Positions 16,953 through 57,507 of a stretch of 61,286 nt of DNA are shown in pieces. Source of the stretch: Sphingomonadales bacterium. Its GTDB lineage: Bacteria; Pseudomonadota; Alphaproteobacteria; Sphingomonadales; Sphingomonadaceae. The stretch covers positions 1 through 61,286 of the forward strand of contig JAIXYT010000017.1 in the NCBI GenBank assembly GCA_027490095.1, in the 5' to 3' direction. Each line of letters starts with the position of its first letter. Positions within the stretch are counted from its first letter, which is position 1. The position numbers and the translations under genes were made by a program. Under the pieces are notes generated by a model. It did no database searches and had not been told where the DNA came from. It worked only from the letters and a program-made list of their open reading frames with translations.

Positions 16953-17013
16953 CAAAACGCGTCGTCACCGACGCAGCGCAAAACGCGTCGTCACCGACGC
17001 AACGCAAAACGCG
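16953..17013. repeat. 26-bp tandem repeat, 2.3 copies, upstream of ffh
   Basis: Copies at 16953-16978 and 16979-17004 differ at one base, followed by a partial copy at 17005-17013. Each contains CGCGTCGTCACCGACGC, and the GCGTCGTCACCGACGC part is itself partly palindromic (GCGTCG/CGACGC). The repeats lie in the 332-nt gap between the ffh start and the end of the PEP-CTERM gene. No gene is visible in the gap. Confidence 0.9.
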
Positions 17014-17162
17014 CCGGCGGGCGAACCTTCGCTGACCGGCGTGCATCCATGGACACTCGAAACAGGTTTTCGGGTGCTGATTTTCGCCTGCGCCATGGCG
17101 CATGCAGGCGGCAGAGTCAAGAATTGCGGGTCGCCGCCCCCCGCAGACCGCGGCAAAGGAAA

Positions 17163-22176: not shown

Positions 22177-22347
22177 ATCGAACCAATCGCCTGTCGTGCC
22201 CCGGGGGCTTGAATCCCGGCGCGCGGCCCCTACCTCCCGGCCAATTCCGGGCCCCTCTGGCCGCGCGGGCGCGCGCGGCGATGTCGGAAGCGCAGATGAA
22301 AATCGGCGCTTACGCGGCGCATGTGCGACAGATACAAGGGGACCCGC

Positions 22348-48724: not shown

Positions 48725-48783
48725 GGCTGGAACCGCGGCCGATGAAATGATACTCCTGGTGCCATAACCGGGAGGAGATGCGC

Positions 48784-49401
48784 ATGTGGTGGCCCTTTGC
48801 CGTGGCGTTGATGGCCTATCTGCTGTTCCGCCTGTGGTATGATGGCGTGAGTGGGCCGCTGACGGCGGCCGAGATCGACGAGGGGCTTGCGCGCATTGCC
48901 GCGCGCGGCGGTAGCGTGGGCACCGAGCTGGGCGCGTTCCGCGGCTTTCTGGAGGCCGATGACGGGCGCGAGTTCGTGATGCTGAACCTGGTGAAGTTCG
49001 CGAGCGGAATGGCGCCCCATCCCGAGACCGGGGAACAAGTGCCGGCGCGAAGCCTGATGGACCATTACAGCCGGCACTTCATCCGGCGGCTGGTGCGGCG
49101 CGGCGGGCATCCGGCCCTGGTTGCGCGCAAGGTGGGGCCCTATGTCGACGCCTGGGGGGATGTGCAGGCGGACCCGGGTTGGAGCATCATGGGATACATG
49201 CGCTACCGGAGCCGGCGCGACCTGCTGGCGCTGGCGGCCGATCCGAGCTTCGGGCCTGTGCACGCCTACAAGGCGCTGGGGGCGGCCACGACGCTGTCGT
49301 TTCCGACGCAGCGGGTGATCTCGCTGTTCGTCGGGCCGCGGCTGTGGGTCGCCCTGGTCCTGCTGCTGCTGGCAGCGCTGTGGGCTCTGGCGTTCGGCTG
49401 A
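48784..49401 (+). CDS. Membrane protein with dimeric alpha/beta-barrel-like domain, unknown
   Basis: 205 residues. An N-terminal helix (WWPFAVALMAYLLFRLWYDG), a soluble middle with GREFVMLNLVKFASGM, then YSRHFIRRLVRRGGHPALVA and IMGYMRYRSRRDLLALAADP, and a C-terminal helix (LWVALVLLLLAALWALAFG). The soluble part resembles the DUF1330/EthD-like ferredoxin fold, but I do not recognise a named family. ATG 48784 is set by GGAGGAG six bases before it, against ATG 48778 that abuts the site. Confidence 0.75.
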   Translation: MWWPFAVALMAYLLFRLWYDGVSGPLTAAEIDEGLARIAARGGSVGTELGAFRGFLEADDGREFVMLNLVKFASGMAPHPETGEQVPARSLMDHYSRHFIRRLVRRGGHPALVARKVGPYVDAWGDVQADPGWSIMGYMRYRSRRDLLALAADPSFGPVHAYKALGAATTLSFPTQRVISLFVGPRLWVALVLLLLAALWALAFG

Positions 49402-49983
49402 TCAGGCGCCGACGAGCCCGCCCACGATCCGGTGCAGGATGGCGGTCGCGGCATCGGGCGTGAGGCTCTGGTCCTGCCGGAGCCGCCGCCACAGATCGAT
49501 GCTGAGAACCGCGTCGAGCGCTTCGAACTGGGCTGGATCGAGCCCCGGGCCGAGGACGGCTGCGAGGATGTCCCGCAGTTCGGCCTGGATGGCCCTGTGG
49601 TCGGACTGGAGGACAGGCGAGCGGTGGCGGTGCACGGCCGCTGCCACGGTGACGGGCATCACCTCTTCGAAGAAGCGGACCCGGCGCTCGACCAGGGCGT
49701 GCAGGCGCGCTTCGGGGGTGTCGCCGGCGAGGGGGAGGGCGCGCACCGGGGCCACCTTGTCGCGCATGATCGCGTTCATCTCGCGGTAGATGCCCTCCAT
49801 GTCGGAGAAGAGGCGGAAGACGGTGCGGCGCCCGACCCCGGCACGGGCGGCGACCGAATCGGCGCTGGGCGACAGATCGCCCTCGCGCACGAGCTCCAGC
49901 ATGGCTTCGACGATTCGGCGGCGGCTGTCTGCCGAGCGGCGGCGGCGGCCGTCTTCGGGGGCTTGAATCCGTCCTGCGTCCAC
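49402..49983 (-). CDS. TetR family transcriptional regulator
   Basis: 193 residues from GTG 49983 (an AAGGA site lies before it); an ATG at 50073 would add 30 residues. An N-terminal helix-turn-helix: RRRIVEAMLELVREGDLSPS, ADSVAARAGVGRRTVFRLFS (about 28-62), then a helical ligand domain. Divergent from the sulfatase operon across a 185-nt gap, so it probably represses that operon and itself. Ligand unknown. Confidence 0.9.
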   Translation of the reverse strand: MDAGRIQAPEDGRRRRSADSRRRIVEAMLELVREGDLSPSADSVAARAGVGRRTVFRLFSDMEGIYREMNAIMRDKVAPVRALPLAGDTPEARLHALVERRVRFFEEVMPVTVAAAVHRHRSPVLQSDHRAIQAELRDILAAVLGPGLDPAQFEALDAVLSIDLWRRLRQDQSLTPDAATAILHRIVGGLVGA

Positions 49984-50168
49984 GCGTCTTCGTCCTTCAC
50001 GCCACCGGGTGACTGTTCGGGCGATATTGACGCATTCGCGCGCCCATGTCACTATTGGCCCTTCAAGTGCCATAAAAAGAGGGGCAAAGGGCCCCTGGGA
50101 GGAGCGGTTGGTGCCATTGCGAGGATCGCAGCGCCGGTCGGCATGGGCGGCGCGCCGGAAGACCGGGC

Positions 50169-51428
50169 GTGCGGGGCTGGCTTGAAGCCCAGGGCTCCCG
50201 ATTGGTCACGAGCCCCGCGCTCCTGCGGATCGGCCGTGGCCTGCATGCAGCCAGGCGCAAGCTGATGGGTGCGGCGCCGACCCTTCACTATTTCCACGGG
50301 GTGGGCGACCCCTATTCGCATCTGGCCGTGCAGCTGTTGCCCCGGCTGGCGGCAGCTTATCCGCTGACGATCGTGCCGCACCTGGTGCCGCCGCCGGCGC
50401 CCGAAGCGGCGCCGGAGCTTGCGATGCTGGACGGCTGGGCGTTGCGCGATGCGCAGCGGTTGGCTGCGATGCACGGGCTTGCCTTCCCGACCATGGCGCA
50501 GCGGCCGGAGGCCGAGGCCATCGCTGCCGTGGAGGCGCATCTGGCCGATGTTGCCCCCGAGGCCTTTGCCGAAACGGCTGTCCGGCTTGGTCTGAGGCTT
50601 TGGGGCGGCGAGGGAATCGAGGCGGGCATTGGAGATCGGGCGGCAGCGCTGACGGACGGCGCAGCGGCCCTGGGTGCAGCCGGCCATTATCTGCCGGGTG
50701 TCTTTGCCTTCGAGGGCGAGTGCTATTGGGGCGTCGACCGGCTTCCCCACCTGGAGGCCCGCCTTGCGCCCATGCGCCGGTCGGGCCCGCCGGTCGTGCG
50801 GCAGCTTGAGGGAAGCGACGCGACCGGCGACGTGCGGGGCGCGGAGCTGCACTTCTTCCTGAGCTTCCGGAGCCCCTACACGCATGTGGCGGCTGCCCGG
50901 GTGCGTCGGCTTGCCGAGCGCTGGAATGCGCGGCTTGTGCTGCGGCCGGTGCTGCCGATGGTGATGCGCGGGCTTCCGGTGCCGATGGTGAAGCGGATCT
51001 ACATCGTTCGCGACACCAAGCGGGAGGCCGAGCGGCTGGGGATCGACTTCGGGAAGGTGCGGGACCCGGTGGGGCCTGGCGTGGAGCGGGGGCTGGCCGT
51101 GCTGCACCGGGCCATCGCACTTGGGCGGGGACCGGCCTTTGCCGAGAGCTTTCTGGCGGGCGCCTTTGCGCAGGCCGTGGACACGACCAGCGACGAGGGG
51201 CTGCTGATGCTGGCGGAGCGAGCCGGGCTGTCGGCGGCCGATGTGTCCGCTGCGCTGGCCGATGAGAGCTGGCGCGCGGTCGCGGAGGCGAACCGGGCAG
51301 AGCTGTTCGGGCTGGGCCTTTGGGGTGTGCCGAGCTTCCGGGTTGCTGATCTGCCGGCGCACTGGGGGCAGGACAGGCTGTGGGCGGTCGAGCAGGACCT
51401 GGCCCGAATGGCGGGAGCGGGGGCATGA
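50169..51428 (+). CDS. Double kappa-GST/HCCA-isomerase-like protein
   Basis: 419 residues with two DsbA/kappa-GST-like halves. The first (about 37-200) starts LHYFHGVGDPYSHLAVQLLP; the second (about 227-410) starts HFFLSFRSPYTHVAAARVRR and ends GVPSFRVADL. Both carry the x-P-Y-S/T motif of the HCCA-isomerase/kappa-GST branch rather than C-x-x-C, so glutathione binding is more likely than disulfide exchange. The fused double form is unusual. GTG 50169; the internal ATG at 50265 would shorten it. It overlaps the MBL gene. Confidence 0.87.
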   Translation: MRGWLEAQGSRLVTSPALLRIGRGLHAARRKLMGAAPTLHYFHGVGDPYSHLAVQLLPRLAAAYPLTIVPHLVPPPAPEAAPELAMLDGWALRDAQRLAAMHGLAFPTMAQRPEAEAIAAVEAHLADVAPEAFAETAVRLGLRLWGGEGIEAGIGDRAAALTDGAAALGAAGHYLPGVFAFEGECYWGVDRLPHLEARLAPMRRSGPPVVRQLEGSDATGDVRGAELHFFLSFRSPYTHVAAARVRRLAERWNARLVLRPVLPMVMRGLPVPMVKRIYIVRDTKREAERLGIDFGKVRDPVGPGVERGLAVLHRAIALGRGPAFAESFLAGAFAQAVDTTSDEGLLMLAERAGLSAADVSAALADESWRAVAEANRAELFGLGLWGVPSFRVADLPAHWGQDRLWAVEQDLARMAGAGA

Positions 51429-52498
51429 AGCGCTGGCTGGGGTTCGGGTTGCTGGGCCTGCTGTTGCTGACGGCAGGCGGCTGGTTCGCGCGCGAGCGGA
51501 TCGCGCTGGGGCTTTACCAGCGCGGGGCCGAGCGGGCCATGACCGCGAACAGCCTGGAGAGCCTGCCGGACGGGCTGCATGCCGCCTTCTGCGGAACGGG
51601 GAGCCCCCTGCCCGATCCGGACCGCGCCGGGCCGTGCCTGGCCGTCATTGCGGGCAAGCGCCTGATCATCGTGGACGCCGGCGAAGGTGCGGCGCGCAAC
51701 CTGGCGCTGATGGGGCTGCCGGCGGCAGGCATCGAGCGGGTGCTGCTGACGCATTTCCATTCCGACCATATCGACGGGCTGGGCGCGCTGGGCCTGCAGC
51801 GCTGGGTGCAGGCAAATGCCGTGCAGCCGCTGATCCTGCAGGGGCCGGTGGGCGTGGGCGACGTCGCGGCCGGGTTCAATTCGGCCTACCGAATCGATTC
51901 GGGCTATCGCACCGCCCACCATGGGGTCTCGGTCGCGCCGCCATCGGGCTTCGGCTTCTCGCCGCGGGCCTTTGCCTTGGCCGATGGGCCGGGGGTGATC
52001 CTGAACGAGGGCGGGCTGAAGATCACGGCGGTCGCGGTGGACCATGCCCCGGCCGAGCCGGCCGTTGCCTACCGCTTCGACTACAAGGGGCGCTGCATCA
52101 CGGTTTCGGGCGACACTGCGCAGTCGGCGGCGCTGGAGGCGCTGGCCGAGGAGTGCGACCTGCTGGTGCACGAGGCGCTGCAGCCGCGGCTGACGCGCAT
52201 GCTGGGCACCGCGGCCGGCCGCGCGGGCAATGCGGGGCTCGCCAAGATCATGGTGGATATCGAGGATTATCACACGGCACCCGAGCTGGCGGCCGAATCC
52301 GCTGCGAAGGCGCGGGTGAAAGCGCTGGCGCTGACGCACATCGTGCCTCCGCTGCGGCTTGCCGGCCTGGAGAGCGCGTTCCTGGGCGATGCGCACATGC
52401 GCTTCGACGGCGAGCTGTGGATCGCGGCCGACCGCGAGCTCGTGAGCCTGCCGGCAGGCGGCGGCATGACGCGGAGCATGCTTGGAGGGACGCGATGA
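51425..52498 (+). CDS. MBL-fold metallohydrolase (RNase Z/arylsulfatase-like)
   Basis: 357 residues. An N-terminal membrane anchor or signal (about 4-20, GFGLLGLLLLTAGGW), then a metallo-beta-lactamase fold with LLTHFHSDHIDG, the H-x-H-x-D-H motif (110-115), AVDHAPAEPAVAYRF, VSGDTAQSAAL (Asp) and LTHIVPP (His). Relatives include secreted arylsulfatases and RNase Z; the chemistry here is unproven. The ATG overlaps the upstream stop codon. Confidence 0.88.
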   Translation: MKRWLGFGLLGLLLLTAGGWFARERIALGLYQRGAERAMTANSLESLPDGLHAAFCGTGSPLPDPDRAGPCLAVIAGKRLIIVDAGEGAARNLALMGLPAAGIERVLLTHFHSDHIDGLGALGLQRWVQANAVQPLILQGPVGVGDVAAGFNSAYRIDSGYRTAHHGVSVAPPSGFGFSPRAFALADGPGVILNEGGLKITAVAVDHAPAEPAVAYRFDYKGRCITVSGDTAQSAALEALAEECDLLVHEALQPRLTRMLGTAAGRAGNAGLAKIMVDIEDYHTAPELAAESAAKARVKALALTHIVPPLRLAGLESAFLGDAHMRFDGELWIAADRELVSLPAGGGMTRSMLGGTR

Positions 52499-54135
52499 AG
52501 AAGCGCTGGATTCTGCTGGGAACTGCAGTCGCGCTGGGCGTTGCCGGCACCGCACTCTGGCAGCGCTATTGGTACTACACCCCCGGCCTGATCGGCGCGA
52601 TCCGCAACCCGGTGCAGCCCAACCAACCGGTGACATGGGCGCGCGGGCCCGAGACGGCGACAACGCCGGTTGCCGGGCGGCCGCCCAACATCATCCTGAT
52701 CGTGGCCGATGACCTGGGCATCAACGACATCTCGGCCTTCGGCGGTGGGATCGTGCCGACACCGCACATCGACCGGCTGATGAAGGAGGGCGCCAGCGTC
52801 GACAGCTTCTACGCGGCAAATGCTACTTGCTCGCCCAGCCGGGCGGCCATGATGACGGGGCGCTATCCCACGCGCTTCGGGTTCGAGTTCACCGCGGTGC
52901 CGCCGATCTTCGCGAAGAACATCGCTCACACCACCAGGGACGCGCCCGTTCAGCCGATCTTCCACGCTGACCGGGTGGAGGGGATCATGCCCTACGAGAA
53001 GATGGGCGTGCCGCCTTCGGAGATCATGATCCCCGAGGTGCTGAAGGCGCGCGGCTATCGCAGCCTGCATATCGGCAAATGGCATCTGGGGGAAAGCGAT
53101 GGCCTGAGGCCCGAGGACCAGGGGTTCGACGAGTCGCTTGCGATCCTGGCCGGCGGCGGGATGTTCGATGATCCGGACTCGCCCGATGTGGTGAATGCGA
53201 AACTGCCCTGGGACCCGATCGATCGCTTCATCTGGGCCAACCTGCCCTTCTCTGTCAGGTGGAACGGGGGGAAGCACTTCAAGCCGGATCGCTACATCAC
53301 CGACTATTTCACGACCCAAGCGCTGGCCGCGATCGACGCGAACCGCAACCGGCCCTTCTTCCTGTATCTCGCCTACAATGCGCCGCACACGCCGCTGCAG
53401 GCGAAGAAGAGCGATTTCGACAAGCTGGGCCACATCAAGGACCATCGCGACCGGGTCTATGCCGCGATGCTGGTCGCGCTGGACCGGGGGGTGGGCGAAA
53501 TCCAGGCCAAGCTGGAGGCGGAGGGCCTGGCGGAGAACACGCTGATCCTGTTCACCTCGGACAATGGCGGGGCCTGGTATGTGGGGATGAACGACCTCAA
53601 CAAGCCCTACCGCGGCTGGAAGGCGACGTTTTTCGAGGGCGGCATCCGGGCACCGCTGTTCGCGAAGTGGCCGGCGCGGATTCCGGCCGGCACGAAGGTG
53701 GCGGGCGTGGGCACGCACATCGACTTCATGGCGACGGCGGCCGCGGCTGCTGGCGCGGCGCTGCCGACGGACCGCAGGCTGGATGGGATGAACCTGCTGC
53801 CGAACCTGACCAGCGGAACGCCTATTCCGCCCCGCACGCTGTTCTGGCGCTCGGGCGATTATCGCGTGGTCCGCGACGGAGATTGGAAGCTGCAGGTGTC
53901 GGCCCGGCCGGACCGGGTGTGGCTGCACAATCTGGCGGCCGACCCGACGGAACAGCGCGACCTGTCGGCTGCCATGCCGGACAAGGTTGCAGACCTGCGT
54001 GCAAAGATCGATGCACAGGCAGCCGAAATGCCGAAACCCCTGTGGCCTGCGCTGCTGGAAGGGCCGGTCAGGATCGATGTGCCGCTGAACGCGCCGTGGA
54101 AGGAAGGGCAGGACTATGTCTTCTGGGCCAACTGA
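52495..54135 (+). CDS. Sulfatase, formylglycine type, first copy
   Basis: 546 residues. N-terminal membrane segment (about 5-20), then the alkaline-phosphatase-fold sulfatase: PPNIILIVADDLGINDIS with two metal Asp, ATCSPSRAAMMTGRYPTRFG with the sulfatase signature C-S-P-S-R (Cys112, expected to become formylglycine), LHIGKWHLG, LAYNAPHTPLQAKK and FTSDNGGAWYVG. All metal ligands look present. Substrate unknown. No formylglycine-generating enzyme gene is in the window. The ATG overlaps the MBL gene stop codon. Confidence 0.93.
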   Translation: MKKRWILLGTAVALGVAGTALWQRYWYYTPGLIGAIRNPVQPNQPVTWARGPETATTPVAGRPPNIILIVADDLGINDISAFGGGIVPTPHIDRLMKEGASVDSFYAANATCSPSRAAMMTGRYPTRFGFEFTAVPPIFAKNIAHTTRDAPVQPIFHADRVEGIMPYEKMGVPPSEIMIPEVLKARGYRSLHIGKWHLGESDGLRPEDQGFDESLAILAGGGMFDDPDSPDVVNAKLPWDPIDRFIWANLPFSVRWNGGKHFKPDRYITDYFTTQALAAIDANRNRPFFLYLAYNAPHTPLQAKKSDFDKLGHIKDHRDRVYAAMLVALDRGVGEIQAKLEAEGLAENTLILFTSDNGGAWYVGMNDLNKPYRGWKATFFEGGIRAPLFAKWPARIPAGTKVAGVGTHIDFMATAAAAAGAALPTDRRLDGMNLLPNLTSGTPIPPRTLFWRSGDYRVVRDGDWKLQVSARPDRVWLHNLAADPTEQRDLSAAMPDKVADLRAKIDAQAAEMPKPLWPALLEGPVRIDVPLNAPWKEGQDYVFWAN

Positions 54136-55132
54136 GGCGGGGCTCGTCCGTCTCCACGGCGCGCTGGGCTCGCCCTATTCGATGAAGATGCGGGCGCTCA
54201 TGCGCTATCGCCGGATCCCGCACGCCTGGGTGCAGGACAATGGCGCCCGGATGGCACTGTTCCCCAAGGTGAAGGCGCCCGTCATCCCGCTTCTCGAGTT
54301 CCCGGATGGCACGGTCGAGAATGACAGCACGCATCTGACCCGCCTGCTGGAAGCGCGCGTTCCGGGCCGCAGCGTGATTCCGGAAGACCCCTGCATCGCC
54401 TTCCTGGCCTTTCTGATCGAGGACTTCGCCGACGAGTGGCTGACCAAGGCCATGTTCGGCTATCGCTGGCTGGCCGAGGTGGACCAGCAGCAGATGAGCC
54501 GCTGGCTGATGTTCGACGCCATGCCGGGCACTGGCGACGAGGCCCAGCGCGCGATGGCGCAGGCTTTCCGCGACCGGCAGGTGGGGCGGATGGGGCTGGT
54601 GGGCTGCACGGCGGCGAATTTCCCGCTGATCGAAGCCTCCGCGCGCGCGGTGCTGGACGCGCTGGAGACGCATGTGGCGGACGGCATGTTCCTGTTCGGC
54701 ACCCGGCCTTCGGAAGCGGAGTTCAGCCTGTTCGGCCAGTTATCGCAGCTGGGAGTCGATCCGACCCCTGAGGCGATGATGCGGCGCGACTTTCCGCTGG
54801 CCTTCCGCTGGCTGGCGCACATCGACGACCTGTCGGGCGTCGAGGGCGAATGGGGCGGGGTGCGGCCGGTGGTGCAGCCGATCCTGAAGGTGATCGGCGA
54901 GGTGTATCTGCCCTTCCTGGTGGCCAATGCGGCTGCGGTGGAGGCCGGGGCCCCGGAGGTGCGGCTGGAGGCCTGGGGCATGACGCTGGTGCAGCCGCCG
55001 TTCCGCTACCAGGCGAAATGCCTGACCGCCCTGCGCGCGGCGTTCGCGGCGCTGACGCCCGACTGCGCGGCAGACATCCTGCCCCTGCTGGCGGCGACCG
55101 ACTGCCTGCCTTTTCTGGAGACACGCGCATGA
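54116..55132 (+). CDS. Glutathione S-transferase-like protein
   Basis: 338 residues. N-terminal thioredoxin-like GST domain (about 10-95): VRLHGALGSPYSMKMRALMR, VKAPVIPLLEFPDGTVENDS and THLTRLLEAR, then a helical domain with APEVRLEAWGMTLVQPPFRY near the end. The N-x-S-P-Y-S motif is the glutathione site. It overlaps the end of the first sulfatase by 20 nt, with GGAAGGGCAGG before its ATG. The substrate is not known. Confidence 0.88.
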   Translation: MSSGPTEAGLVRLHGALGSPYSMKMRALMRYRRIPHAWVQDNGARMALFPKVKAPVIPLLEFPDGTVENDSTHLTRLLEARVPGRSVIPEDPCIAFLAFLIEDFADEWLTKAMFGYRWLAEVDQQQMSRWLMFDAMPGTGDEAQRAMAQAFRDRQVGRMGLVGCTAANFPLIEASARAVLDALETHVADGMFLFGTRPSEAEFSLFGQLSQLGVDPTPEAMMRRDFPLAFRWLAHIDDLSGVEGEWGGVRPVVQPILKVIGEVYLPFLVANAAAVEAGAPEVRLEAWGMTLVQPPFRYQAKCLTALRAAFAALTPDCAADILPLLAATDCLPFLETRA

Positions 55133-57507
55133 GCGACGAGACGGAGGGCAAGAAGGGTCTCGACCGCCGCTCTCTGCTGATCGGCGGGGCAGTCGGTGCG
55201 GGTGTGGCGGGCGCTGCCGCTGTCGGCGCGCGGGAGGTGGAGAAGCGCGCGCGGCAGTTCATCACGCCCGAGGCGGTGGCGGACGGGCCGGCCCAGATCG
55301 GCGAGAGCTTTGCCGACAGCCGCCCGATCGACGTGACGAAGGAGAAGTGGAAGCCGGGTGCGCCCAATGTGGTCGCGATCATCCTGGACGATGTGGGGTT
55401 CGCCGATCTCGGCTGCTTCGGCTCGGAGATCCCGACGCCCAACATCGACGCGCTGGCCGCCCGGGGCCTGCGCTATGCGAACTTCCGGACGACGGCCATG
55501 TGCAGCCCGACGCGGGCGGCCTTCCTGACCGGGCTGAACCACCATTCGGCGGGCATGGGCTGGCTGGCGGACGTGGACGCGGGGTTTCCGGGGTACCGGG
55601 GCGACCTGACGCACGAGGCCGCAACTGTTGCCGAGATCCTTGGGGATGCCGGCTGGAACACCCTGCTGGTCGGCAAATGGCATGTGAACAGCGGCCATTC
55701 GACAGGCGCCAATGGCCCGTACCACAACTGGCCGACCAACCGCGGCTATGAACGGGCCTACTGGTTCCAGGGCCATTCCACGGACTTTTTCCATCCGAGC
55801 GAGTTGTTCGACGGGGTGGCTCCGGTGGAACCGCCTCGGACAGACGATTATTATGTGATGGATGACCTGACCGACCGGGCCTGCGCCTATATCGGGACGC
55901 AGAAGGCGCTGGAGCCCGAGCGGCCCTTCTTTCTGCACATGGCCTTTCCGGGCGTGCACTCGCCCTTGCAGGTGAGGGGGCGGGAGCGGGACCGGTTCAA
56001 GGGGCAGTATGACAGGGGCTGGGACGCGATCCGGGCCGAGCGGCTGGAGAAGCAGAAGCAGCTGGGGATCGTGCCGGCCAACACGCCGCTGCCGCCGCTG
56101 TCGTCCAACGCCAAGCCGTGGGACAGCCTGAGTGCCGGGGAGAAGCGGCTCTATGCGCGCTACATGGAGGTCTATGCCGCCATGCTGGCCAATGTGGACG
56201 CCAATGTCGGGCGGCTGATGCAGCGGCTGGAGGAGCTGGGGATCGCCGACAACACGCTGGTGCTGCTGTTTTCGGACAATGGGGGGTCTGCCGAGGGAAC
56301 CGAGACCGGCACGCCCAACGTGTTTGCGGCGGCCTTCGGGCGGCCGGTGCCGGTGGCCGAGGCCGAGAAGCTGATCGACGTGATGGGCGAGGACCCGACC
56401 TTTCCGCACTATCCGATCGGTTGGACCAATGCCTCGACCACCCCCTACCGGCTCTACAAGCAGTTCACCCACCTGGGCGGGGTGGCCGACCCGCTGATCG
56501 TGAGCTGGCCCAAGGGGATGGAGGCGGGCAAGGTTCGCCAGCAGTTCGTGCACGTGATCGACCTGATGCCGACGATCCTGGAGGTTACGGGGGTTGAGGC
56601 GCCGGTGGCGCGGCGGGGCGTAAAGCTGAAGCCGGTGCAGGGCAAGTCCATCGTGCCGACCTTCAAGGCCGCCGACGCCCCCACGCGGACTGAGCAGTAT
56701 TTCGAGCTGGGCGGTCACCGGGCCTTCTATGCCGCGCCCTTCCGGATCGTGACGCGGCACGAGCGGGGGAAGCCCTTCAAGGATGACAGCTGGGAGCTCT
56801 ATGACCTGTCGAAGGATCCGAACGAGTTGACCGACCTGGCGCCGAAGATGCCGGAGAAGGTGAAGGAGCTTGCCGACAAGTGGCAGGCGGCCGCCGAGCG
56901 CTATGGCGTGTTCCCGCTGGACGACCGGCAGATGGTGATCCGCATGGTGCAGGACCGGCAGGCGCGCGGCATCCGCGAAACGTGGGACCTGAAGCCACCG
57001 ATCGAGCGGCTGAGCCGGGAGATGGCGCCGGTGTGCTGCGGGCTGCCGCACGAGATCATCATCGACTGCGTGCGGCAGGGCGACGGCGTGCTGGTGGCAC
57101 ACGGCAGCCAGCCGGCGGGCTATACCCTGTATGTGAAGGACGGGCGGCTCTACTACGAACAGTCGCTGCTGCCCTGGCGGGAGGTGATCGACGGCGGGCC
57201 GGTGCCGATGGGCAAGGTGGAGATCCGCTACAGGCAGACGATGAAGAGCCGGCCCTTCGACGGCTCAGGCGCGCTGTTCGTGAATGGGGAGAAGCGGGCT
57301 GAGAAGGCGTTTGCCCATGCGCTGTTCTCCACCAGCTACGATGGCTTTTCGGTGGGGGCTGACCTCGGCAACCGGGTGTCACCCGCCTATACGGCGCCCT
57401 TCCCCTTTGCCGGCAGCATCGCGCGGGTGCGGATCGAGGTGGATGCCTCGGCGCTGAGCCCTGTCGAGACGATGCGCTTCATCAAGGCGATGGCGCTGCG
57501 GGTGTGA
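55129..57507 (+). CDS. Arylsulfatase, Tat-exported, second copy
   Basis: 792 residues. A twin-arginine signal (GLDRRSLLIGGAVGAGVAGA), then the sulfatase core: PNVVAIILDDVGFADLGCFG, TAMCSPTRAAFLTG (Cys125, C-S-P-T-R for formylglycine), LLVGKWHVNSGHS, and LLFSDNGGSAEGTETGTPN. Longer than the first copy by about 245 residues, in a C-terminal beta-rich extension of the large arylsulfatase subclass. Acts in the periplasm. The ATG overlaps the GST stop codon; 47 nt of noncoding DNA follow. Confidence 0.94.
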   Translation: MSDETEGKKGLDRRSLLIGGAVGAGVAGAAAVGAREVEKRARQFITPEAVADGPAQIGESFADSRPIDVTKEKWKPGAPNVVAIILDDVGFADLGCFGSEIPTPNIDALAARGLRYANFRTTAMCSPTRAAFLTGLNHHSAGMGWLADVDAGFPGYRGDLTHEAATVAEILGDAGWNTLLVGKWHVNSGHSTGANGPYHNWPTNRGYERAYWFQGHSTDFFHPSELFDGVAPVEPPRTDDYYVMDDLTDRACAYIGTQKALEPERPFFLHMAFPGVHSPLQVRGRERDRFKGQYDRGWDAIRAERLEKQKQLGIVPANTPLPPLSSNAKPWDSLSAGEKRLYARYMEVYAAMLANVDANVGRLMQRLEELGIADNTLVLLFSDNGGSAEGTETGTPNVFAAAFGRPVPVAEAEKLIDVMGEDPTFPHYPIGWTNASTTPYRLYKQFTHLGGVADPLIVSWPKGMEAGKVRQQFVHVIDLMPTILEVTGVEAPVARRGVKLKPVQGKSIVPTFKAADAPTRTEQYFELGGHRAFYAAPFRIVTRHERGKPFKDDSWELYDLSKDPNELTDLAPKMPEKVKELADKWQAAAERYGVFPLDDRQMVIRMVQDRQARGIRETWDLKPPIERLSREMAPVCCGLPHEIIIDCVRQGDGVLVAHGSQPAGYTLYVKDGRLYYEQSLLPWREVIDGGPVPMGKVEIRYRQTMKSRPFDGSGALFVNGEKRAEKAFAHALFSTSYDGFSVGADLGNRVSPAYTAPFPFAGSIARVRIEVDASALSPVETMRFIKAMALRV

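Follow-up and report, generated by a model that had tools for sequence, protein, structure and literature searches.

Organosulfates occur in abundance in water, plants, animals and drugs; assigned substrates are known for few bacterial sulfatases. Among the catabolic and detoxification operons controlled by TetR-family repressors, the NemR-type regulons are an example. Kappa-class glutathione S-transferases (GSTs) and 2-hydroxychromene-2-carboxylate (HCCA) isomerases are single-domain, DsbA-like proteins of about 200 aa with an S-P-Y motif, the serine of which we take to be catalytic. To our knowledge, no pathway has been described with a glutathione-dependent branch of organosulfate catabolism. 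PMC5066984 gives C/S-x-P-x-R as the signature of the S1 sulfatase domain and places the S4 arylsulfohydrolases close to RNase Z.

The gene set and its products

The window analyzed here, a stretch of 61,286 nucleotides from a Sphingomonadales bacterium (contig JAIXYT010000017.1), contains five genes at 50169-57507 which overlap by 4, 4, 20, and 4 nt, in gene order, and probably form an operon. The preliminary description gave the coordinates, order and overlaps of these genes and of the opposing TetR gene correctly, and left out a DUF1330-like gene on the other side of tetR. The features of the locus are as follows.

48778-49401, plus strand: DUF1330-like gene, recognized by a profile from related loci
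49402-50073, minus strand: tetR, divergent, opposite the five-gene set
50056-50072, no strand assigned: palindromic probable operator, found by comparison across related loci
50169-51428, plus strand: kappa-GST-like protein, kGST2 (DSBA, PF01323, 69.8 bits, cut-off 25.6)
51425-52498, plus strand: metallo-beta-lactamase (MBL) hydrolase (Lactamase_B_2, 57.4 bits, cut-off 27)
52495-54135, plus strand: sulfatase 1 (Sulfatase, PF00884, 169.9 bits, cut-off 25)
54116-55132, plus strand: GST (GST_N_3, 38.6 bits, cut-off 22; GST_C_2)
55129-57507, plus strand: sulfatase 2 (Sulfatase, PF00884, 185.2 bits, cut-off 25)

Promoter and terminator scans remained at chance level.

Both sulfatases are of the S1 type and carry the C-x-P-x-R signature, as CSPSR in sulfatase 1 (C112, R116, D72, and D73 in 36/36 rows) and as CSPTR in sulfatase 2 (C125 and R129 in 6/6 rows). 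Among solved structures, S1_19 and carrageenan sulfatases come closest to sulfatase 1 (best match 9hh3, E 9e-74), and 7all (E 2e-86) and the arylsulfatase 1hdh (E 6.5e-84) are among the closest to sulfatase 2; both sets are too distant for a substrate to be assigned from sequence. Sulfatase 2 is 792 aa long, of which its best solved relatives span only residues 78-603 or so, and begins with a twin-arginine signal (DRRSLL at 12, hydrophobic segment 15-34). A formylglycine-generating enzyme (FGE), proposed earlier as something to be sought elsewhere in the genome, is encoded at G000:C41:53157-54065 (269 bits), on a contig other than that of the operon.

Three start codons are candidates for kGST2 (GTG 50169, TTG 50202, and ATG 50265), and PF01323, at residues 227-411, is the single Pfam domain recognized in it. 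Since its two halves are homologous to each other by hhalign profile comparison (probability 97.9, 172 columns), the term "double" kappa-GST used in the preliminary description is correct. Like the kappa-class GSTs and HCCA isomerases, the C-terminal half combines PF01323 with S-P-Y (SFRSPY; S235 in 88/88 rows), whereas the protein as a whole is a tandem duplication of about 420 aa, the first half of which carries D-P-Y (D47 in 87/88 rows). The serine half is likely the catalytic one and the aspartate half the modified one. The nearest PDB structure is 3fz5, the best PDB match reaching only 37 bits. The GST encoded between the sulfatases has a long C-terminal extension and an SPY motif (S19-P20-Y21) in 15/15 rows; its matches in the PDB are weak and mostly of the omega class, and the fold assignments of both glutathione-type proteins rest on profiles.

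The MBL protein contains the HxHxDH zinc motif of its fold (H113, H115, D117, and H118, conserved together with H210, D233, and H308 in 28/28 rows) and an N-terminal hydrophobic segment (residues 7-25, numbered in the reading frame of the Pfam search). The anchored MBL hydrolase recognized previously has an arylsulfatase as its nearest solved structure (8gyg, "Arysulfatase", E 4e-23), so that the operon may encode three sulfate-ester hydrolases belonging to two folds. It resembles the S4 zinc arylsulfohydrolases, such as AtsA of Pseudoalteromonas carrageenovora, in the MBL fold with HxHxDH and in its proximity to RNase Z (its scores with the NCBIfam RNase Z models fall short of their cut-offs), and differs from them in being membrane-anchored. 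We regard it as a membrane-anchored hydrolase and a candidate S4-like zinc arylsulfatase.

The DUF1330-like protein is matched by a family profile from related loci with E 2.1e-6 (set of 10 proteins) and by no Pfam model, and has a hydrophobic C-terminal segment at 179-207. Searches of plasmid records returned no match for kGST2 or for two TetR queries, one weak match for the GST and, for sulfatase 1, only sulfatases of less than 60% identity (626 records).

The TetR repressor and the common palindrome

The tetR product scores 21.4 bits with TetR_N, under the Pfam cut-off of 24; its helix-turn-helix region aligns with that of 37 relatives (38 aligned rows, conserved), and its ortholog group is joined at E 1.4e-62 or better. 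The window palindrome, TGGCCCTTCAAGTGCCA, has one mismatch to the consensus TGRCAYTNNNARTGYCA and lies 96 nt ahead of the first kGST2 start codon. Because the first ATG of tetR falls at the palindrome edge, translation may in fact begin at GTG 50052 or GTG 49983.

With at most one mismatch, the palindrome is present in nine of ten independent TetR-anchored loci, none of which took part in defining it (an eleventh, L181, repeats L038 and was left out). In the same ten loci, shuffled palindromes (n=300) scored 0.27 on average and 6 at most, and reached at least 5 in two cases. In total, 89 sites were found in 145 loci, 81 of them no more than 250 nt upstream of genes of the set; the 15 loci retrieved by the motif itself (L148-L162) are excluded from these counts. 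Among kGST2 loci, it accompanies 21/23 with tetR compared with 15/51 without, and it occurs in 0/15 hand-picked loci lacking the TetR cluster. The palindromic symmetry extends to flanking bases outside the search pattern (T at -2 in 64/86 and A at +20 in 69/86 sites). In the relatives, the palindrome-bearing promoter regions are those of kGST2, tetR, a hydrolase, the DUF1330-like gene, sulfatase 1, MBL, sulfatase 2, and GST; the DUF1330-like gene of the window has no palindrome of its own. Of 17 sulfatase-1-anchored loci, ten have the palindrome, none of them repeating an earlier locus, and seven do not; 12 of the 17 have no TetR ortholog above threshold.

The palindrome at the divergent promoter is probably the operator of TetR. 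As 81 of the 89 sites precede genes of the set and nine of the ten TetR-anchored loci carry the motif, the conserved TetR and the common palindrome point to a single regulon. This link to TetR, by a palindrome common to loci across bacteria, is a result newly added by the present analysis.

A second close TetR is encoded in the same genome at C41:13205-13741, with neither a palindrome nor a sulfatase in 19.9 kb. The genome was scanned with TGGCAYTNNNARTGCCA, a pattern narrower than the final one; allowing two mismatches, it matched 21 places compared with 35 for the reversed control, and therefore no second site is claimed.

Recurrence in related genomes

The gene set recurs, with its order reshuffled, in alpha-, beta-, and gammaproteobacteria, and the synteny search proposed in the preliminary description retrieves it from three anchors, kGST2, TetR, and sulfatase 1. 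Sequence extends for 8 kb to either side of 35 double-kappa-GST loci. A sulfatase lies within this distance in 27 of them and is absent from eight, whereas genomes of this bacterial order contain 2.47 PF00884 matches on average (363 in 147 genomes). FGE is present in 20 of these 35 loci, including 19 of the 27 with a sulfatase. The ten independent TetR-anchored loci contain a sulfatase in nine cases, the DUF1330-like gene in seven, FGE in six, and kGST2 in one. Since kGST2 occurs in only this one and in three of the 17 sulfatase-1-anchored loci, it is not an obligatory part of the set. Taken with the palindrome, the synteny counts make the set more than a chance assembly.

In Sandaracinobacter neustonicus (L034), the gene order is identical and the kappa-GST is 71% identical; two other loci (L035 and L036) keep the order with no GST between the sulfatases. 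In the kGST2 tree, the window falls in a group with three others, and all four have sulfatases. In Comamonadaceae, kGST2 is found near marC or FAA hydrolase genes, with no sulfatases. Relatives of the DUF1330-like protein occur in L085, L112, L128, L130, L131, L133, L134, L183, and L185, often adjoining tetR. The related loci also hold TonB receptors (a family present in 7/25 of them), an FAD monooxygenase and a DUF1302 protein, and in L201 and L202 a P450 gene lies opposite kGST2, with an exact palindrome site between the two; these neighbors fit a hydrophobic substrate. DUF2855 and a small membrane protein (F14) recur in related clusters as well. Some members of an alpha/beta-hydrolase family (F6) were antisense readings of kGST2, and the profile of this family was built from the six clean rows.

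Proposed function and relation to described systems

The reading that we favor as the more probable is a TetR regulon, with this operon as its local copy, through which a hydrophobic organosulfate (an aryl, steroid-like or terpenoid sulfate ester) would be used or cleared. A ligand, either substrate or product, would release TetR from 50056-50072, and the five genes would then be transcribed together. Hydrolysis of the sulfate esters would take place outside the cytoplasm, through sulfatase 2 with its Tat signal, the anchored MBL protein and probably sulfatase 1. The phenol or alcohol set free would enter the cell, and kGST2 and GST would bind glutathione and isomerize, conjugate or reductively process the freed product or a reactive product. 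In Caenibius tardaugens, an arylsulfatase gene is induced by cholate, according to PMC12882949. The preliminary description had suggested both uptake and cleavage of an organosulfate: the joining of formylglycine sulfatases with glutathione-type enzymes in a probable operon is borne out by the gene set, the overlaps and the recurrence, whereas uptake is not, as the operon contains no transporter gene, and the stepwise order and the sulfated aromatic substrate of that description stay suggestions.

The regulon could instead serve detoxification rather than nutrition, sensing a toxic electrophile or sulfated toxin that GSTs, P450, catalase-peroxidase and efflux neutralize, with the sulfatases as one step. 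We consider this unlikely, although the P450 gene opposite kGST2 in L201 and L202 would suit it. The same applies to a catalase-peroxidase gene that faces kGST2 with the palindrome between them in L066 (L068, L069, and L077 have ORFs of that family), to the MATE gene adjoining kGST2 in L201, to the aldo/keto reductase in L051, and to the ADH_N_2-type dehydrogenase in L122. Against it, few parts of the set are as constant as sulfatase and FGE, and the AMP-binding ligase (L123), the TonB receptor (L122) and the hydrolase genes look catabolic.

Sulfur scavenging, in which sulfate is released under sulfur shortage and the carbon skeleton is left unused, is less probable still. The S1-type sulfatases and the candidate S4 enzyme are compatible with it, and a TauD-family dioxygenase adjoins kGST2 in five loci (L040, L044, L047, L051, and L056), but the regulator is a TetR and not a sulfur regulator, and sulfate release needs no glutathione enzymes, P450 or hydrolase. 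Desulfation of a sulfated polysaccharide, as by the known S1_19 and S1_16 carrageenan sulfatases, is suggested by the nearest structures of sulfatase 1 and appears improbable: these matches are distant, the neighbors scanned (a minority of all) include only two glycosidases, GH43 (L134) and NamZ (L198), and the glutathione enzymes would have no role. That unrelated genes overlap here by chance, in a gene-dense, GC-rich genome with many overlaps, is hardly credible given the recurrence from three anchors and the common palindrome.

More tentatively than for the organosulfate regulon itself, we suggest that the locus may represent a widespread undescribed TetR regulon, in which two unrelated sulfatase folds are combined with a new two-headed kappa-type glutathione enzyme whose aspartate and serine halves possibly cooperate on the desulfated product, in a glutathione-dependent branch of organosulfate catabolism. 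The gene set is apparently undescribed: in agreement with the earlier view that no described pathway has it, no account of it or of a tandem kappa-GST was found in the literature searched (titles and abstract openings, with subscription papers thinly covered), and the PDB and family searches gave no close homologs of a different known function, which had been named as grounds for rejecting the idea. With its repressor defined and its operator probable, the regulon offers a direct route to the substrate: whatever ligand releases TetR should be either the substrate itself or its product. Through the palindrome, the tandem kappa-GST and the DUF1330-like protein are also brought into a single pathway that can be tested.

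Compared with the S1 formylglycine-dependent sulfatases of SulfAtlas, those of the window have the same PF00884 domain, C-x-P-x-R signature, metal and catalytic residues and an FGE in the genome, whereas here glutathione enzymes accompany them under the same TetR. With the NemR-type operons the locus shares the divergent tetR and a palindrome at the tetR start; it differs from them in the palindrome TGRCAYTNNNARTGYCA and in this combination of sulfatase and glutathione genes, neither of which was found described in the literature searched.

Gene set and its proteins

The preliminary description placed a run of five plus-strand genes opposite a TetR-family gene, and the positions hold, with overlaps of 4, 4, 20, and 4 nt. 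Each enzyme family it named is backed by Pfam.

48778-49401, DUF1330-like gene, tail to tail with tetR
49402-50073, minus strand, tetR
50056-50072, palindrome, probable TetR operator, 96 nt before the first kGST2 start codon
50169-51428, plus strand, kGST2 (tandem kappa-GST/DsbA-like protein)
51425-52498, plus strand, MBL (metallo-beta-lactamase-fold hydrolase)
52495-54135, plus strand, sulfatase 1
54116-55132, plus strand, GST
55129-57507, plus strand, sulfatase 2

The TetR domain scores slightly below the Pfam cut-off, and its helix-turn-helix is alignable with 37 relatives. Downstream of sulfatase 2, 29 nt away and in the same orientation, is alr; gshB and dedA are found upstream both here and in the related locus L034. 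Rfam matches in the window are a partial 16S rRNA gene (1-117), an ffh sRNA (17004-17056), and a terC RNA (22239-22296).

Sulfatase 1 keeps C112, R116, D72, and D73 in all 36 aligned rows and K195, H197, H298, D356, N357, and K376 in 35 of them, while D87, D88, C125, R129, K183, H185, H277, D383, N384, and K444 of sulfatase 2 are kept in 6/6 rows. The two are 25% identical; the nearest solved structures are S1_19/carrageenan sulfatases for the former and arylsulfatases 7all and 1hdh for the latter. The sequence of sulfatase 2 has a twin-arginine signal. No hydrophobic segment of sulfatase 1 exceeds the threshold applied, and a membrane anchor in its N-terminal stretch is a guess. The genome has eight PF00884 matches and, as the preliminary description had proposed to check, one clear formylglycine-generating enzyme (FGE), located on another contig. 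Four more sulfatase matches, only distantly similar to the window's two, follow one another on the minus strand of G000:C4:46945-53004 (L108).

The "double" character of kGST2 is borne out: its halves are homologous to each other (hhalign 97.9, E 3.8e-13), the first with D47 within D-P-Y (87/88 rows) and the second with S235 within S-P-Y (88/88). GST has S-P-Y in 15/15 rows.

Conservation of the set

Scanning named genomes for kGST2 yielded 74 loci. Among the 35 flanked on each side by 8 kb or more, the neighbors are sulfatase (27), FGE (20), MBL (19), tetR (17), DUF1330-like (14), GST (12), and hydrolase (12) genes. Counted per side by midpoints of matches of at least 150 bits, sulfatases number 24 at 0-2 kb (130 sides), 13 at 2-4 kb (107), 10 at 4-6 kb (100), and none at 6-8 kb (92) or 8-10 kb (46); as a yardstick, the 147 genomes of the order hold at least 363 PF00884 matches, three genomes having at least 14 each. 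On a quick kGST2 tree of 88 rows with long branches, the sulfatase label requires 15 changes versus 29.8 for shuffled labels (0/500 as low). The nearest kGST2 relatives, in Sandaracinobacter, Sandaracinobacteroides, and Sandarakinorhabdus, all have sulfatases; a Comamonadaceae and a Sphingomonadales group (f5) have none within the DNA examined.

The TetR profile finds a close ortholog in 13 other genomes of 397 (E 2.5e-65 or better; the next only E 2e-28). Ten loci form the independent TetR-anchored set, leaving out L128 and L132, fetched earlier for sulfatases, and L181, a repeat of L038. Within 19.5-kb regions they contain sulfatase (9), DUF1330-like (7), FGE (6), hydrolase (5), GST (4), MBL (3), and kGST2 (1) genes. 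The sulfatase 1 anchor was found in 18 other genomes of 288; the 17 loci counted (the eighteenth, L187, was already among the loci examined) contain the palindrome (10), FGE (8), GST (8), the TetR ortholog (5), DUF1330-like (4), and kGST2 (3). Given the counts from these two anchors, the most constant parts are the sulfatase, FGE, and the DUF1330-like protein, plus the repressor in one branch; the glutathione proteins and MBL are modules that recur often.

No gene of the set lies near either of the two more distantly related TetR genes (L192, L193). The genome also encodes a second close TetR paralog (G000:C41:13205-13741; L180:10176-10757; E 1.4e-62), followed by a 632-aa ORF; the 19.9 kb examined there contain neither a palindrome match nor a sulfatase.

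The palindrome

First noticed in the window and in the loci most closely related to it, the palindrome was generalized from loci L034-L147 to TGRCAYTNNNARTGYCA. Nine of the ten independent TetR-anchored loci, fetched after the pattern was set, carry it at no more than one mismatch (10/11 counting L181), and 300 shuffled palindromes hit on average 0.27 of these loci (maximum 6; two reached at least 5). It occurs in 0/15 hand-picked loci lacking the TetR cluster, and in 36/74 kGST2 loci: 21/23 with a tetR ortholog and 15/51 without, where many contigs are short. A scan of 145 loci, L181 and L038 both included, gives 89 sites distributed over 68 of them, and 81 sites have a set-gene start within 250 nt downstream: kGST2 34, tetR 17, hydrolase 17, DUF1330-like 12, sulfatase 1 11, MBL 10, sulfatase 2 9, GST 6, and FGE 1. 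Since these loci were picked for holding set genes, the statistics rest on the held-out and shuffled tests. The palindrome continues into the flanking bases beyond the pattern (86 sites: T -2 in 64, A -1 in 58, T +19 in 64, A +20 in 69). In the window it extends as far as the first tetR ATG, and the gene therefore probably starts at GTG 50052 or 49983.

Predicted function and relation to known systems

The palindrome common to their genes suggests a single shared response for the sulfatases, MBL, kGST2, GST, hydrolase, and DUF1330-like proteins. Further genes in related loci encode or include TonB receptors, an AMP-binding ligase, an ADH_N_2-type dehydrogenase, DUF2855, a P450 gene divergent from kGST2 with an exact palindrome between them (L201:4079, L202:16594), an FAD monooxygenase (L202), and, in Parvibaculum, a catalase-peroxidase gene facing kGST2 across a palindrome (L066:7555-9753). 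These neighbors fit a hydrophobic sulfate ester, perhaps aromatic or terpenoid, as the putative substrate. ORFs of the catalase-peroxidase family lie at the equivalent place in L068, L069, and L077.

The main rival reading assigns the set a role in detoxification. In MAGs from Comamonadaceae and other Burkholderiales, kGST2 is found close to a fumarylacetoacetase-type FAA hydrolase gene, marC, or both, without sulfatases (L063, L064, L075, L078, L083, L084, L088, L089, L093), a setting that hints at a glutathione-dependent isomerase role for kGST2. We classify the set as a putative regulon for organosulfate processing that includes a glutathione module.

The Caulobacter clusters have, near their TetR end, a gene whose product combines Methyltransf_33, FGE-like, and DinB domains (L086:1381-3696; Pfam scan of L086), with family members in L071, L076, L104, and L107. 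This combination is of the ergothioneine type and may be a further connection to low-molecular-weight thiols. In L040, L044, L047, L051, and L056, kGST2 converges on a gene for a TauD-family dioxygenase (Pfam check: L047), a superfamily that includes the S2 alkylsulfatases.

All parts of the set come from known superfamilies; titles and abstract openings of the literature searched yielded no description of the gene combination, its palindrome, or the tandem kappa enzyme. MBL keeps its zinc-ligand residues in 28/28 rows, and its N-terminal hydrophobic segment agrees with the predicted anchoring of this hydrolase. Among solved structures MBL is closest to an arylsulfatase (85 bits; the next scores 53). 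NCBIfam places it near RNase Z, with scores below the cut-offs, and in PMC5066984 the S4 arylsulfatases are likewise the group close to RNase Z.
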